Below, piece after piece: positions 4,661 through 16,213 of a stretch of 25,659 bases of DNA. The position numbers and the translations under genes were made by a program. The notes beneath the pieces were generated by a model. That model saw only the letters and a list, made by a program, of their open reading frames with translations, was not told the origin of the DNA and ran no database searches. The stretch spans positions 1 to 25,659 of IMG/VR virus record IMGVR_UViG_3300042446_000488, one strand, 5' to 3'. Position 1 is the stretch's first letter. Each line of letters begins with the position of its first letter. The stretch is from a virus.

Positions 4661-5376
4661 AAGCCAAAGACATCATTGTAAAGCCGATCAGCGCAAAGGA
4701 TGCGAATCGCATTGTGAAATCTTGTCACTACTCAGGCAAGGTGGTTCCTAATTCACAGTTGCATTTCGGTGTTTTTCTTGACGGTAAATGCGGAGGAGCA
4801 ATGCAGTTCGGGCCGTCAATGCGTAAAGATTTAATACAGCCATTAGTGCATGATACAAAATGGAATGGATTTATAGAGCTAAATCGCATGGCATTCGCTG
4901 ATTGGCTGCCACGAAACAGTGAAAGCCGAGCAATCTCAGTCGCAATGCGTTTGATCCGAAAATCATATCCTCATATTGAATGGGTTATTTCTTTTGCTGA
5001 TGGCACGCAATGCGGAGACGGCACAATTTACAGGGCAAGCGGATTTGCTTTGACTGGCATCAAAAAAAATACCGAAATGGTAATACATCCAGTGACAGGC
5101 GAGATTATGGCTACCATGGCAGCATACCACAAAGGACACGCAGCAGAAATATCTAAATGGCAACGTATGGATGGATTTATGTTCCGCTATATCTACTTTC
5201 TCAACCCAGAAGCAAAATCACGCTTGACAGTCCCGATTTTACCGTTTACTGAAATTGAGCGTCGCGGCGCGGGAATGTATCTCGGCAAACCAAAACGCGC
5301 GGAAAGCATCGCAGTCGATGCGCCTTGCATCCAGCAGGGAGAGGGCAGTGCAAGTCTGACCTCCGCGCTCCAATAG
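4657..5376 (+). CDS. Mom-like DNA modification protein (second of two)
   Basis: This 239-residue protein has the same arrangement as its neighbour and is the more typical Mom-family member: PISAKDANRIV (10-20), CHYSGK (23-28), LHFGVFLDGKCGGAMQFG (35-52), IELNRMAFAD (73-82), NSESRAISVAMRLIRK (87-102), WVISFAD (109-115) and GDGTIYRASGF (120-130). Paired His-Tyr near the start and the Asp and Gly of the SFAD and YRASGF blocks fall where the family has its conserved functional residues. Identity between the two copies is low outside these blocks, so they are ancient paralogs or separate acquisitions. The start overlaps the previous stop (ATGA). The terminase small subunit follows after 3 bases. 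Activity and base target are inferred. Confidence 0.8.
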   Translation: MKAKDIIVKPISAKDANRIVKSCHYSGKVVPNSQLHFGVFLDGKCGGAMQFGPSMRKDLIQPLVHDTKWNGFIELNRMAFADWLPRNSESRAISVAMRLIRKSYPHIEWVISFADGTQCGDGTIYRASGFALTGIKKNTEMVIHPVTGEIMATMAAYHKGHAAEISKWQRMDGFMFRYIYFLNPEAKSRLTVPILPFTEIERRGAGMYLGKPKRAESIAVDAPCIQQGEGSASLTSALQ

Positions 5377-5379
5377 GTT

Positions 5380-5988
5380 ATGAAGATAGACTCTGCCACA
5401 GTTGATAAGATCAACCAAGCGAACCTCGCCAACATCCTAAAAAAGGTGAAGGCGGGGAAGGTGCTTACATCGGCGGAGCGGAAGTTAATTGACGGATCTA
5501 GTGTAAAGCCAAGCGAACTTGTTACACAGAAAAAGATTGTTGATATTTTCAACATCACTCGCAAGTCAATCGCTCAGTGGCGACGTGAAAAAAAGATTGG
5601 CTTGCCTGAAAAAGAGCAAGGCATGGAAAACCTTGCAAAGTGGCGAGAGTTCTTTGCATCAAATCCTGATGCTGGTTTTTTTGATGGTAAGCCAAGGCTT
5701 GACCGTGAATCACTACTTTGCCAAAAACTTACGGTGGAAATCGAGTGCAAGAAAATTGAGTTGAAAAAGCTCGAAGACACTTGCATCGACATGATCGATG
5801 TGCAAAACGCTTTTTACAAATTAGGTGCCGTAATGAGGGCTGGCATCATGCGACTGCAAGCGGATCTCCCGCCAGTATTAGAGGGTCGAACCCCCGCAGA
5901 AATGGCAAAGCGCATCGGAGAAGCTGCAGACAAATTACTCACCGAACTAAGCAGCAACGCCGCAGAAGTGTGGGGGGATGATGAGTAA
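5380..5988 (+). CDS. Terminase small subunit (Nu1-like DNA packaging protein)
   Basis: This 202-residue protein fits a small terminase subunit: an HTH at about residues 47-70 (VTQKKIVDIFNITRKSIAQW), matching the Nu1 N-terminal winged-helix type, then a basic linker. A coiled-coil middle part follows (LCQKLTVEIECKKIELKKL, about 109-127), then a helical C-terminus that would bind the large subunit. Small subunits recognise the packaging site on viral DNA and recruit the ATPase. Position immediately before a GpA-type large subunit, with an 11-base overlap, supports it strongly. No cos or pac site could be recognised from sequence alone. Confidence 0.85.
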   Translation: MKIDSATVDKINQANLANILKKVKAGKVLTSAERKLIDGSSVKPSELVTQKKIVDIFNITRKSIAQWRREKKIGLPEKEQGMENLAKWREFFASNPDAGFFDGKPRLDRESLLCQKLTVEIECKKIELKKLEDTCIDMIDVQNAFYKLGAVMRAGIMRLQADLPPVLEGRTPAEMAKRIGEAADKLLTELSSNAAEVWGDDE

Positions 5989-7696
5989 AACCGCACAACT
6001 CTTTGCGGCATTTCGCCAATCGTGCAGACCTCCGGCACGGCTAAAGCCTAGCGCGTGGGCGCATGGCAGGGTGGCACTTTATGAAGGACTCTCGCCATAT
6101 TTCGAGGCGGACGCATCACCTTGGCTAGTCGAACCACTAAACGCATTTGCCGACATCGGCGCGAAAGAGGTTTGCTTACTTGCACCGGTTGGAACTGGAA
6201 AAACCACCATGCTAGAAGCCGCGATGTGCTACATCATCAGCGAGGACGCAGGGGCGACAATGCTAGTAGGTCAAACCGATAGCGACATCAAGGACTGGGT
6301 TGAAACTAGGCTAGATTTTTCGTTGATTAACACCAAGGAAACAGCGGGATTGCTACCAACGGGAAAACATCGGCACAAGAAGAGGAAAGACGCTATCATT
6401 TTCCCTCACATGGCTTTATTTATGACAGGCGCAAACTTGTCTGGACTCCAGGCAAAGTCGATGCGTCGAGTGCTATGTGATGAGCCGTGGATTTATCCAG
6501 ACGGAATGATTCGAGAAGCGGAGGGGCGGCTACATGACAGATGGAATCGGCAGTTTTATCTTTTGGCTCAAGGTGGCTTTGTGAATACCGAGTGGCACAA
6601 GAAATGCGAAAACACCGCGATGCGCGAGTTTTGCTTTACGTGCCCGTCATGCCAACATGAGCAAGCGTGGAAATGGGAGAACGTTATTTATGACACTACG
6701 ATCACAGACCGCGTAAAAATGGCACAATCCGCACAAATAAAGTGCGCGAACGTCGATTGCGATTACCGATTGCAAGACAAACCGCAACCACGGCGAGAGT
6801 TGGCAATCTCAGCGCGTTACGTGCAAATTAAAGAGGGCATGCCTGACAGTTACGGATACCACTACAACGCGCTTTGCAACTGGAGACTACCATTGTGGCG
6901 GCTAGTCATCGAGCGATGTAATGCGATGGATGAAGTGGCGCGGGGCAATCTTAAACTACTGCAACAATTTATTCAAAAACGACTAGCAGAATTTTGGAGC
7001 GATGAGCAAGAGGACGAACGGGTAAAGCTAACGGGTCACGGCTACTCAGTGCGAGATTATGCGAACGGCGAATCATGGGAGGATGAATCGCATAGGTTTA
7101 TGACGATCGACCGCCAGCAAGATCACTTTTGGGTGGCGATCCGCGCTTGGGGCATTGGTGGCAATTCGCGCCTTTTATTTTACTCAAAGGTTGACACATG
7201 GGAACGAGTCAAGGTAATTCAAGAAACCTACAAGGTAGAAAACCGAAAGACGCAAATTGACTGCGGTTATCAAAAAGATGAAGTTTATAAACGCTGCACT
7301 CAATACGGATGGCTTGCATTGCGCGGCGACCAACGCGACCAATATCCACATCGGAACCGACAAGGTAAAACCATTTTCAAATCTTATTCGCCGTATCAAT
7401 CAGTCACGGCCAGTGACGGCAAAAAAACAATGGTGGCGTATTTTTCCAATACGTCACACAAGGACATACTTTTTCAACTGCGCAATCAGCGCGGCGTAGA
7501 TTGGCAAATCCCCGATGATGTTGGCAGTGAATACTTGCGGCAAATCGACGCAGAGGTTAGGCGTGGAGAGGGCAAAACGGCGCGATGGACTAAACGGCAC
7601 AACGACAACCATGCCGTTGACTGTGAAAACATGCAAATCGTGCTTGCTTCAATATTTGGCTTAATCGGAACGCCAGAAACAGAAACGGAAGAATGA
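5978..7696 (+). CDS. Terminase large subunit, lambda GpA family
   Basis: This 572-residue protein is the packaging motor and nuclease. Walker A is APVGTGKTT (69-77); the Walker B Asp-Glu is RRVLCDEP (163-170). A zinc-binding insert has CPSC (222-225) and CANVDC (256-261), as in GpA relatives. The nuclease domain has acidic residues at MTID (Asp 378), QIDCG (Asp 428) and DNHAVDCEN (Asp 548). Length is a little below lambda gpA (641). GpA-type terminases usually cut at cos sites, so cohesive genome ends are likely. Two adjacent ATGs (5978 and 5981) could start it; the first is used here. Confidence 0.95.
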   Translation: MMSKTAQLFAAFRQSCRPPARLKPSAWAHGRVALYEGLSPYFEADASPWLVEPLNAFADIGAKEVCLLAPVGTGKTTMLEAAMCYIISEDAGATMLVGQTDSDIKDWVETRLDFSLINTKETAGLLPTGKHRHKKRKDAIIFPHMALFMTGANLSGLQAKSMRRVLCDEPWIYPDGMIREAEGRLHDRWNRQFYLLAQGGFVNTEWHKKCENTAMREFCFTCPSCQHEQAWKWENVIYDTTITDRVKMAQSAQIKCANVDCDYRLQDKPQPRRELAISARYVQIKEGMPDSYGYHYNALCNWRLPLWRLVIERCNAMDEVARGNLKLLQQFIQKRLAEFWSDEQEDERVKLTGHGYSVRDYANGESWEDESHRFMTIDRQQDHFWVAIRAWGIGGNSRLLFYSKVDTWERVKVIQETYKVENRKTQIDCGYQKDEVYKRCTQYGWLALRGDQRDQYPHRNRQGKTIFKSYSPYQSVTASDGKKTMVAYFSNTSHKDILFQLRNQRGVDWQIPDDVGSEYLRQIDAEVRRGEGKTARWTKRHNDNHAVDCENMQIVLASIFGLIGTPETETEE

Positions 7697-13270: not shown

Positions 13271-13648
13271 ATGGCGACGCTTTTAGGTGTAACAAATGGA
13301 GTTTTCGGAATCACAGCACAGCAAACAGGCTTCTTGCTTGATACGCAAACGTGGGCATATAGCGACGAGGTTAAGATGGTCAAGAACATCAGCGGCGATG
13401 ACACTGGCGAATCACATTATAATGAAAAAGTAGAAATTTCTCTAAGTGGATTTTTGCCTAGCTCTTCACCATTTGCGGGGACGTTAGCATTAAGCCTAAC
13501 GCTTATTACCGTGCCGACAGATCACATCATCGGGTCAATGACAGCTGGCATGACAATCATTCAAACGATCAACCGAAGCAACACTTCTGAGGATTATCAA
13601 AAGGTTGATTTAACCGCCAAGTATTCGCCAACAATCGTTTCAGCTTAA
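13271..13648 (+). CDS. Probable major tail tube protein
   Basis: This 125-residue protein lies right after the tail terminator and ahead of the chaperone genes, where the major tail tube gene is expected. It is predicted to be all-beta with a single helix: KVEISLSGFLP, TLALSLTLITVP and TIIQTINRSN strands, then DYQKVDLTAKYSP, which resembles the last strand of tube proteins. It is shorter than lambda gpV (246) because it lacks an Ig-like C-terminal domain. The start lies 16 bases after TTGACA (13249-13254). Function rests on position and fold pattern. Confidence 0.65.
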   Translation: MATLLGVTNGVFGITAQQTGFLLDTQTWAYSDEVKMVKNISGDDTGESHYNEKVEISLSGFLPSSSPFAGTLALSLTLITVPTDHIIGSMTAGMTIIQTINRSNTSEDYQKVDLTAKYSPTIVSA

Positions 13649-13669: not shown

Positions 13670-14368
13670 ATGAAAAACTTCACTGGTAAAACGGGTGATG
13701 CGGTTTCGCATATTAAAAGCGAGACAAGCAATCCGCAGCTTGCAGCGGCAATCATCGCAATAGATGTGCCATTGCTAAAGACTGCGCCAATGAATACTTT
13801 CGTCGGCGATGGCATAAAAGGAAAGCTAGTTACTTGGCAGTTTTACGGCGCGTCGCCAACTGGCAATACTGCCGACATGGTGATCAAAGCCTGGCACGAT
13901 GAACAATGGCTACGGGCTAACGCATCGCATACCGTGGCTAGAATCAAAGTTGCATTTGACGCAATGCACCAACTATCGAGACAAGCTCAAGGTCGGGAAG
14001 ACTACCTGCCAAAGTGCGAACTTGCCGACACTGTTTTCACCGCATCAACGCCACAAGCGGCGACTATGATTGCGCTCGGTCATATCTGCCAGGGTTACAA
14101 GTTGCACGCCGGCAGTCACTTCTGGCAATTTCCACAAACCGCATCGGTGGACATGGATTTATGGACAGACCATTTCATCCACGACAAGCTACCAACAGCG
14201 GATTTGTCGTATATCAAAGTCGCCTTGCTGAACTGGAAACAACTGATTTCAGACATCAAATCGCCAACGCATACCGCAGTTAAGCACGGAAAAAGAACCG
14301 CTTACATCGGGCGGGATGACGACGCGAAAGCACAATCTCAAATTGAAAAAATACTATACAGAAAATGA
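13670..14368 (+). CDS. Unknown phage protein between tail tube and tail chaperone
   Basis: I do not recognise this 232-residue protein. It is mixed alpha/beta, with several Trp and His residues (AWHDEQWLRANASH, about 74-87; LHAGSHFWQFPQ, about 145-156) and no membrane segment or signal peptide. It starts 21 bases after the tail tube gene and ends in an ATGA overlap with the chaperone gene (14365-14368), so it is made with the tail proteins. In most lambda-like phages nothing, or only a short minor tail protein, lies at this place. It could be a minor tail component or assembly factor, but no motif supports either. Confidence 0.6.
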   Translation: MKNFTGKTGDAVSHIKSETSNPQLAAAIIAIDVPLLKTAPMNTFVGDGIKGKLVTWQFYGASPTGNTADMVIKAWHDEQWLRANASHTVARIKVAFDAMHQLSRQAQGREDYLPKCELADTVFTASTPQAATMIALGHICQGYKLHAGSHFWQFPQTASVDMDLWTDHFIHDKLPTADLSYIKVALLNWKQLISDIKSPTHTAVKHGKRTAYIGRDDDAKAQSQIEKILYRK

Positions 14369-14733
14369 ATACGCCACCAATCATCAAAGACAAGCAATCG
14401 CGACCACTGACGAAATTCCTATGGAATCGAATCCGTGAATTTATTACGCCTGACAAATCGCGCGGGAAAGACGCATCGTTCATCATCGTTTTTGGCTATG
14501 CTGCCTTAGCATTATCCGACGATAAGGAAACGCAAAAAGCATATTGCGATGATGATTCATTTTTTGAACTTATTGCCAAGGTCGGAATCAATCTTAGCGA
14601 ATCGGAAGAAGAAGAAATCGGCAACTATATCAATGGCGTAATCAAACGATGGGAGGCGGCACAGATCGAAGTTGACGGCGCGGGAAAGACGGAATTGACA
14701 GAGGAGACGCGCCAAGTGACAGCGACTATCTGA
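14365..14733 (+). CDS. Tail assembly chaperone G-type protein (unshifted product)
   Basis: This 122-residue protein is the short product of the chaperone pair that binds the tape measure protein during tail assembly. It is mostly helical with an acidic stretch (NLSESEEEEIGNYINGVIKR, 95-114 approx.), in keeping with gpG-like proteins. Near its 3' end lies the lambda-type slippery heptamer, and the -1 frame stays open for 92 codons behind it, which identifies the gene as the G member of a G/GT pair. It begins in an ATGA overlap with the unknown gene before it and lies upstream of the tape measure gene, as expected. Confidence 0.8.
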   Translation: MNTPPIIKDKQSRPLTKFLWNRIREFITPDKSRGKDASFIIVFGYAALALSDDKETQKAYCDDDSFFELIAKVGINLSESEEEEIGNYINGVIKRWEAAQIEVDGAGKTELTEETRQVTATI

Positions 14734-14966
14734 CAGATTTATTCGCCAGCGAATACGGATGGACACGGCAAGAAATCAATGAGTTACCAATGGATGAAGA
14801 AGCGCGATTGTTTCACGCGATCTTGTTTAGAAAAGGGGTTAAGTGCTACAAGAGACAAATTGAGATGGGGCAACACGACAAGACGCTTAAAGAACGATTG
14901 GAGGAAATCACAGCGCAAATTGACATAGCCAACTTAGAAGAAGAACTATTATGGGATTCACCGTAG
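14365..14966 (+). CDS. Tail assembly chaperone GT-type fusion protein (by -1 frameshift)
   Basis: Ribosomes slipping back one base at 14682-14688 read 108 codons of the first frame and then 92 codons of the second (from 14688), making a 200-residue protein that ends at TAG 14964-14966. The second part has a clear T-domain look: LTDLFASEYGWTRQEINELP, then MDEEARLFHAILFRKG, then a Lys/Glu-rich helix. In lambda the G part binds itself and the T part binds the tail tube subunit, so the fusion links tube to tape measure. The extension overlaps the tape measure start (14951) by 16 bases. It would be missed if only ATG-to-stop frames were annotated. Confidence 0.85.
14682..14688 (+). promoter_or_regulatory. 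Programmed -1 frameshift site G GGA AAG
   Basis: The heptamer GGGAAAG sits in the chaperone reading frame as G-GGA-AAG, so both tRNAs can re-pair at GGG and AAA after slipping back one base. It is the same heptamer used by the lambda G gene. The -1 frame has its last stop at 14673-14675, 7 bases before the site, and is open afterwards to TAG 14964-14966. No clear downstream pseudoknot was seen. Confidence 0.85.
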
Positions 14967-16213
14967 ATATTAAAGGCAACGCAAGCCACTTGGATAAGAC
15001 GATCAAGAATGTGAAAACCTCACTTTCGGCAATCGGCAGCGTGGCGACTACAGCGGCAACTTCACTTGCTGGCATCGGCGTAGCTGGTGGCGCGGCTATG
15101 GCTGCATTTATAATTACAAGCAGTAAGGCGGCGGCAGATGTTGAGGATTTAGGAATTCAATTTGAAGTTCTAACTGGCAGTGCAAAAACGGCAGCGGAGT
15201 TGATGAAAACATTCCGCGACGAAGAAAAGAAATCAGCTTTGAGTCTATCGGACTACGCAAACGCTGCAAAAACAATGTTAGCGTTTGGAACGTCCTTAGA
15301 TGACGTAACGCCATCTTTGCGTATGCTTGGTGACGTGTCTATGGCTAACTCTGAACGCTTTGGCAGTCTTGCGCTTGCTTTCGCGCAAACAACGGCAGCT
15401 GGTCGTTTAATGGGTCAAGAGGTGTTGCAATTCGTCAACGCTGGATTCAACCCGCTAGAGCAAATCTCACGCGATACAGGGCGGTCAATGCAAGACCTTA
15501 AAAAAGACATGGAGGACGGCGCAATTACCGTTGATATGGTCAAGCAAGCATTTGTTAGTGCGACTAGCGAGGGCGGCAGATTTTACAAAGCAATCGACAA
15601 GGGTAGCGCGTCAACTAACGCCAAGCTCAACCAATTAAGCGCGGCGGCTACACAATTACGAGTCGCCTTTGGAACTGGATTCAACGAGGGGTTGAAAGAC
15701 GCACTTGATGCAAGCAATAATTTTTTACCACAGTTAGAAAACAAATTTGCCAGATTTGGAGACATAGTAGGAAGCGCAATCAGTCAAGGCACAAAAGGCA
15801 ACACAGAAGAACTAGCGTTGATTGGCGGATTGATTGGCGACGTAATACTAGAGGGCGCAAAAGCAACTTTTCAAAAAGGCTTAGACTCAATGGTAAGTGA
15901 AGCCTTGCCAGCATTTTTAGAGTTTCAAGCAAAATATAACAAGCTCCCTGGAGGTGCAGCTCTTGGTAATTACGTTGCAAGCGACATCAGAAGCAAGGTG
16001 GGATCATCTGCGCCAACATCGGCGTATATGCAAACAGCGATTGAGAACGTGCAAGCAAGTGGAAGCATTGGAAAACTGCAAGACGCACAAATGAAACGCG
16101 ACATTGCGGCGGGGATTAAAACTGGCATCACATCAAGTATGAGCGAAGAAGTGAAAAAAGGCATTTTAGACGCATGGGCAAAACAGCCACAAGGGGCAAA
16201 ATTTTCTAACTAA
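14951..16213 (+). CDS. Tail tape measure protein
   Basis: This 420-residue protein fixes tail length and leaves with the DNA during infection. It begins like phage tape measures: FTVDIKGNASHLDKTIKNVK, then a hydrophobic Ala/Gly segment at about 26-57 (GSVATTAATSLAGIGVAGGA) that can cross the membrane. Next comes a central domain typical of the family: DYANAAKTMLAFGTSLDDV, AQTTAAGRLMGQEVLQFVNA, FNPLEQISRDTGRSMQDLKK and the QLRVAFGTGFNEGL segment. By the common rule of about 0.15 nm per residue it predicts a tail near 60 nm, short for a siphovirus. It follows the chaperone pair as expected. Confidence 0.92.
   Translation: MGFTVDIKGNASHLDKTIKNVKTSLSAIGSVATTAATSLAGIGVAGGAAMAAFIITSSKAAADVEDLGIQFEVLTGSAKTAAELMKTFRDEEKKSALSLSDYANAAKTMLAFGTSLDDVTPSLRMLGDVSMANSERFGSLALAFAQTTAAGRLMGQEVLQFVNAGFNPLEQISRDTGRSMQDLKKDMEDGAITVDMVKQAFVSATSEGGRFYKAIDKGSASTNAKLNQLSAAATQLRVAFGTGFNEGLKDALDASNNFLPQLENKFARFGDIVGSAISQGTKGNTEELALIGGLIGDVILEGAKATFQKGLDSMVSEALPAFLEFQAKYNKLPGGAALGNYVASDIRSKVGSSAPTSAYMQTAIENVQASGSIGKLQDAQMKRDIAAGIKTGITSSMSEEVKKGILDAWAKQPQGAKFSN

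Follow-up and report, generated by a model that had tools for sequence, protein, structure and literature searches.

In this study, which was based on an IMG/VR-type virus record of 25,659 bases (hereafter the window, meaning this whole stretch of DNA) and the contigs related to it, we found that the region upstream of the tape measure gene very likely encodes a G/GT pair of tail assembly chaperones that is expressed via programmed -1 frameshifting; the arrangement of the locus, its conservation and the selection on both frames were established here, and the slipping, its efficiency and the binding roles of the products are what we infer. A lambda-like G/GT architecture is supported by the gene order, an invariant slippery heptamer, protein-level selection on the extension and a profile match to the chaperone extension of Arthrobacter phage KellEzio. 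On these sequence-based grounds, the lambda-type -1 frameshift that the initial annotation had proposed as joining two chaperone frames was supported. The locus is very probably an ordinary and well-supported new example of a mechanism and a role that are already textbook knowledge. It adds a family that lacks a model to the known frameshifted tail chaperones, and it offers a correction to the annotation of at least 45 viral contigs, in which the T half was likely missed or misplaced.

Organisation of the G/T junction and its neighbouring genes

The genes and the heptamer described here between 13271 and 16213 lie on the plus strand. The 0-frame ORF at 14365-14733 encodes a 122-aa short tail assembly chaperone that was classified as G-like based on its conservation and a predicted helical model. 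Close to its end, at 14682-14688, is the heptamer GGGAAAG, and its proposed phase was confirmed from the ATG at 14365, relative to which it reads G GGA AAG in the X XXY YYZ pattern of a -1 slip. The -1 frame (14676-14966) had been described as opening 7 bases upstream of the heptamer; the open frame was found as stated, but the distance was corrected to 6 nt, since the -1-frame TGA at 14673-14675 leaves the frame open from 14676. Its reported length of 92 codons proved right when counted after the slip, from 14688 to 14963, with the TAG at 14964-14966 as the stop. A single -1 slip would thus yield a predicted GT fusion of 200 aa (14365-14966), as reconstructed from the sequence.

The heptamer string is not rare by itself, as the window has three matches compared with the 2.6 that would be expected; one of these three, at 14464-14470, lies in the wrong phase. 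When the full arrangement was defined as GGGAAAG preceded by at least 100 open 0-frame codons, with a 0-frame stop close by and a -1 frame that stays open for 90 codons or more, only one site on both strands of the window had it, namely 14682-14688. That the heptamer exceeds chance is concluded mainly because the related contigs keep GGGAAAG in phase.

The gene order is that of a tail module: a probable tail tube gene, a second conserved gene, G, the T extension and the tape measure gene. The tape measure protein (14951-16213, 420 aa) was recognised by PF20155 (TMP_3, E 3e-21) and by the PHROG tape-measure families, and its length among the relatives ranges from 408 to 433 aa. If tail length scales with the tape measure protein in the usual way, the 420 aa in the window would correspond to a short tail, roughly 60 nm long. 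The stop of T overlaps the start of the tape measure gene by 16 nt (14951-14966); this overlap is identical in the closest groups and comprises 1 to 4 nt or is missing in the others, and translational coupling may be its cause. Upstream, the conserved tail-module gene at 13670-14368, the stop of which shares 4 nt with the start of G, is 68% identical in the related contig L014, while the probable tail tube protein (13271-13648, 125 aa), which was named by its position only, is 78% identical there, and both genes are retained in L014 in the same order. Neither of them had a family model above the cut-off in Pfam or PHROG, nor did the 13670-14368 gene in NCBIfam. Elsewhere in the window, the large subunit of the terminase (5978-7696) was compared with those of cultivated phages and no close relative was found among them, the closest being that of Verrucomicrobia phage P8625 with an identity of only 25%.

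Conservation of the heptamer and selection on both frames

The relatives were gathered by searching with the G, T and tape measure proteins, which resulted in 44 distinct IMG/VR contigs that span the junction. Every one of the 44 has GGGAAAG in phase at this G/T junction, although many are near-identical within a lineage; together they represent about seven lineages, and the 300-nt junction regions of these share 30-67% identity when no correction is made for gaps. This conservation is not circular because nine of the contigs were reached via the tape measure protein alone and were therefore unselected on G or T, and because none of the searches selected on the heptamer. In a 20-sequence alignment, the heptamer was the longest invariant run. 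The residue that precedes the Gly-Lys pair can be Ala, Ser, Thr, Glu or Pro, and its codon always ends in G. Taking Gly-Lys as given and the seven lineages as independent, the codon usage puts the probability that codon choice would produce the heptamer in every one of them at about 1e-10, a value that is indicative only because the lineages share ancestry. Moreover, the relatives differ in how much 0-frame tail follows the heptamer (0 to 25 codons) while the T half is conserved, and the identity of the G protein is 62% in L014 and 49-57% in the neighbouring lineages.

The nearest informative relative, L005 (94-96% protein identity), enabled the substitution pattern to be followed across the junction. 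In G, 25 of the 34 substitutions between the window and L005 fell at the third positions of the 0 frame (p = 2e-6), and in T past the overlap, 13 of the 19 fell at the third positions of the -1 frame (p = 0.002), so that the third-position bias switches from the 0 frame to the -1 frame past the heptamer. The dN/dS values were 0.03-0.33 over both halves; in the T frame they ranged from 0.03 to 0.19 across the computable pairs, with 0.10 against L005, which was similar to the G frame. Both the G and the T halves are under purifying selection at the protein level. Additionally, there were no substitutions between the window and L005 in the 88 nt around the site (14629-14716; p = 0.004 in a simple permutation).

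A GGGAGG sequence is commonly seen in the relatives some 25 nt upstream of the heptamer. As a possible stimulator it was set aside; it codes for part of a conserved Trp-Glu-Ala stretch and is absent from some lineages. The stimulator of the dnaX type lies nearer to its slip site than GGGAGG does to this heptamer. No downstream stimulatory RNA structure was detected either, as the fold z-scores were near zero and no supported consensus structure was found; the heptamer may therefore act alone or with elements that escaped detection.

Frameshifting model and alternative explanations

By analogy with lambda, most ribosomes would stay in the 0 frame and produce the 122-aa G-like protein, while a minority would slip back by one base at G GGA AAG as the tRNAs in the P site and the A site re-pair on GGG AAA, and would then translate 92 further codons to give the 200-aa GT fusion. 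The efficiency of the slip would set the G:GT ratio. In lambda, low-level -1 frameshifting gives G and GT at about 30:1, the tape measure protein is bound by G and the tube protein by T (PMC5009743); another survey lists 7% as measured for one phage tail chaperone (PMC3711429). Correspondingly, G and the G part of GT may coat the tape measure protein that is encoded downstream, and the T part may recruit the tail tube subunits. According to PMC5009743, G_GGA_AAG is highly shift-prone in E. coli, and G-T frameshifting is widely conserved even with low sequence similarity. The initial annotation had considered conservation alongside a tail tip that is not lambda-like to be notable, which we judged to be unremarkable.

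The conservation in the relatives makes it unlikely that the arrangement reflects chance, an indel introduced by sequencing or a T gene with a start of its own. A single missing or extra base introduced by sequencing or assembly would look alike in one contig, having split one gene into two frames, but the identical split occurs at the heptamer in 44 other contigs from many samples and with differing flanks, which refutes this explanation and leaves it a negligible probability. The heptamer could also work via slippage of the polymerase, which can likewise join frames, and AAAAAAA occurs at some of the distant loci that share the T-module. However, slippage during transcription has been linked to longer A/T runs (PMC3711429), whereas the homopolymers in GGGAAAG do not exceed three bases, and we regard this mechanism as very improbable here.

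A little less remote, and still improbable, is that T is a separate gene whose translation begins within the -1 frame through re-initiation or coupling, the heptamer being incidental. There is a -1-frame ATG at 14790, a GTG, TTG or ATG codon occurs in some of the relatives around +45 to +57 relative to the heptamer, and in a few relatives a -1-frame start might be placed ahead of the conserved motif of T. However, the first ATG, GTG or TTG in the -1 frame of the window comes only after that motif (DLFASEYGW), and a -1-frame start before EYGW is not common to the relatives, with L030, L033, L042 and L005 having none. A separate start would also fail to account for the fixed choice of the GGGAAAG codons and for a -1 frame that is conserved even ahead of any start codon.

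Identity of the proteins and other loci with the T-module

Neither G nor T had a model above the cut-off in Pfam, PHROG or NCBIfam, and a tblastn search with the fusion produced no matches among the cultivated phages. Three members of the T family weakly matched phrog_33493, 'tail assembly chaperone' (best E 0.0024, below the cut-off). Residues 1-108 of G gave a mainly helical AlphaFold model (pLDDT 86), for which Foldseek and VIA-align searches of solved structures and viral models found no confident match; the model of T was weak (pLDDT 72, pTM 0.45) and also had no confident match among the viral models. None of the 18 members of the G family matched PF06894 (Phage_TAC_2, the lambda gpG homologues), and T had no Pfam match to PF06223 (Phage_tail_T) and an hhalign probability of under 1% to eight lambda-type T proteins. 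Lambda T itself matched PF06223 and lambda G matched PF06894. No homology between T and lambda gpT was thus detectable by Pfam or hhalign. In contrast, the T profile matched the KellEzio chaperone extension with an hhalign probability of 94% and an hmmsearch E of 2e-6. The description of the extension as 'T-domain-like' therefore stands as regards its position and the KellEzio match, but not as regards homology to lambda gpT.

The features shared with lambda are GGGAAAG itself, its phase and its place close to the end of G, the -1 extension, and a T frame that runs into the beginning of the tape measure gene. Nevertheless, homology was undetectable for either half, the extension has 92 aa compared with 144 in lambda, and the 420-aa tape measure protein is far shorter than lambda gpH. 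KellEzio gp31/gp32, which carry the annotation of a joined tail assembly chaperone and precede a tape measure gene, share a -1 extension with DLxxSEYGWTxxxI, although the in-phase heptamer of KellEzio is GGGAAAA rather than GGGAAAG and the G halves are not detectably related. The conserved motif in T is DLFASEYGW(T)xxxIxxLPxDE, and in its module form DLxASEYGWTxxxIxxLPxDE. The T-module is also found at distant loci with AAAAAAA or GGGAAAA sites, where the conservation of the motif is partly built in because these loci were found with the motif pattern; a scan of genome contigs returned distant T-modules only.

The most useful additional finding is a single-frame variant of the T-module beside other tape-measure families. 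At the loci L049-L057, as in the window, the module lies at the C-terminus of the gene directly upstream of a tape-measure-like gene, but this gene is a single ORF of about 200 aa. The ORFs have 201-222 codons (L049:3611-4219, L051:3626-4231, L053:3515-4183, L055:3581-4201 and L056:3581-4198), and the ORF downstream of each of these five is large and mostly tape-measure-like. With the T-module inside one uninterrupted ORF, frameshifting is unneeded at these loci. The extension may well represent a tail-chaperone family that has no confident library model and that is defined by a helical module of roughly 30-40 residues with different tape-measure neighbours and several expression architectures, with -1 sites of GGGAAAG, GGGAAAA or AAAAAAA in some lineages and one unbroken ORF in others. 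If this is true, the T-module series would be a natural one for asking why some lineages retain frameshift control of the G:GT ratio and others lose it, and a comparison of its frameshifted with its single-frame forms could help to test how stringent the need for this ratio is.

In L055 only, the linker contains AAAAAAA in phase, followed seven codons later by a stop in the -1 frame; this might be a dnaX-like inverse site. We do not claim such an inverse frameshift for the single-frame relatives, as the linker site occurs in L055 alone and a suitable site is absent elsewhere. In the cultivated Verrucomicrobia phage P8625 (L102), the hypothetical gene gp18 (4918-5538) directly precedes the tape measure gene, and its C-terminal stretch weakly resembles the T-module (hhalign 7%, below significance); this is a hint that a cultivated phage, too, may encode its chaperone in a single frame. 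Finally, two Akkermansia genome contigs (L088:3555-4171 and L092:815-1431) carry the T-module with an in-phase GGGAAAA upstream of a tape-measure-like gene, which in L088 has a weak match to PF20155; judged from their sequences, these loci point to prophages with a putative frameshifted chaperone.
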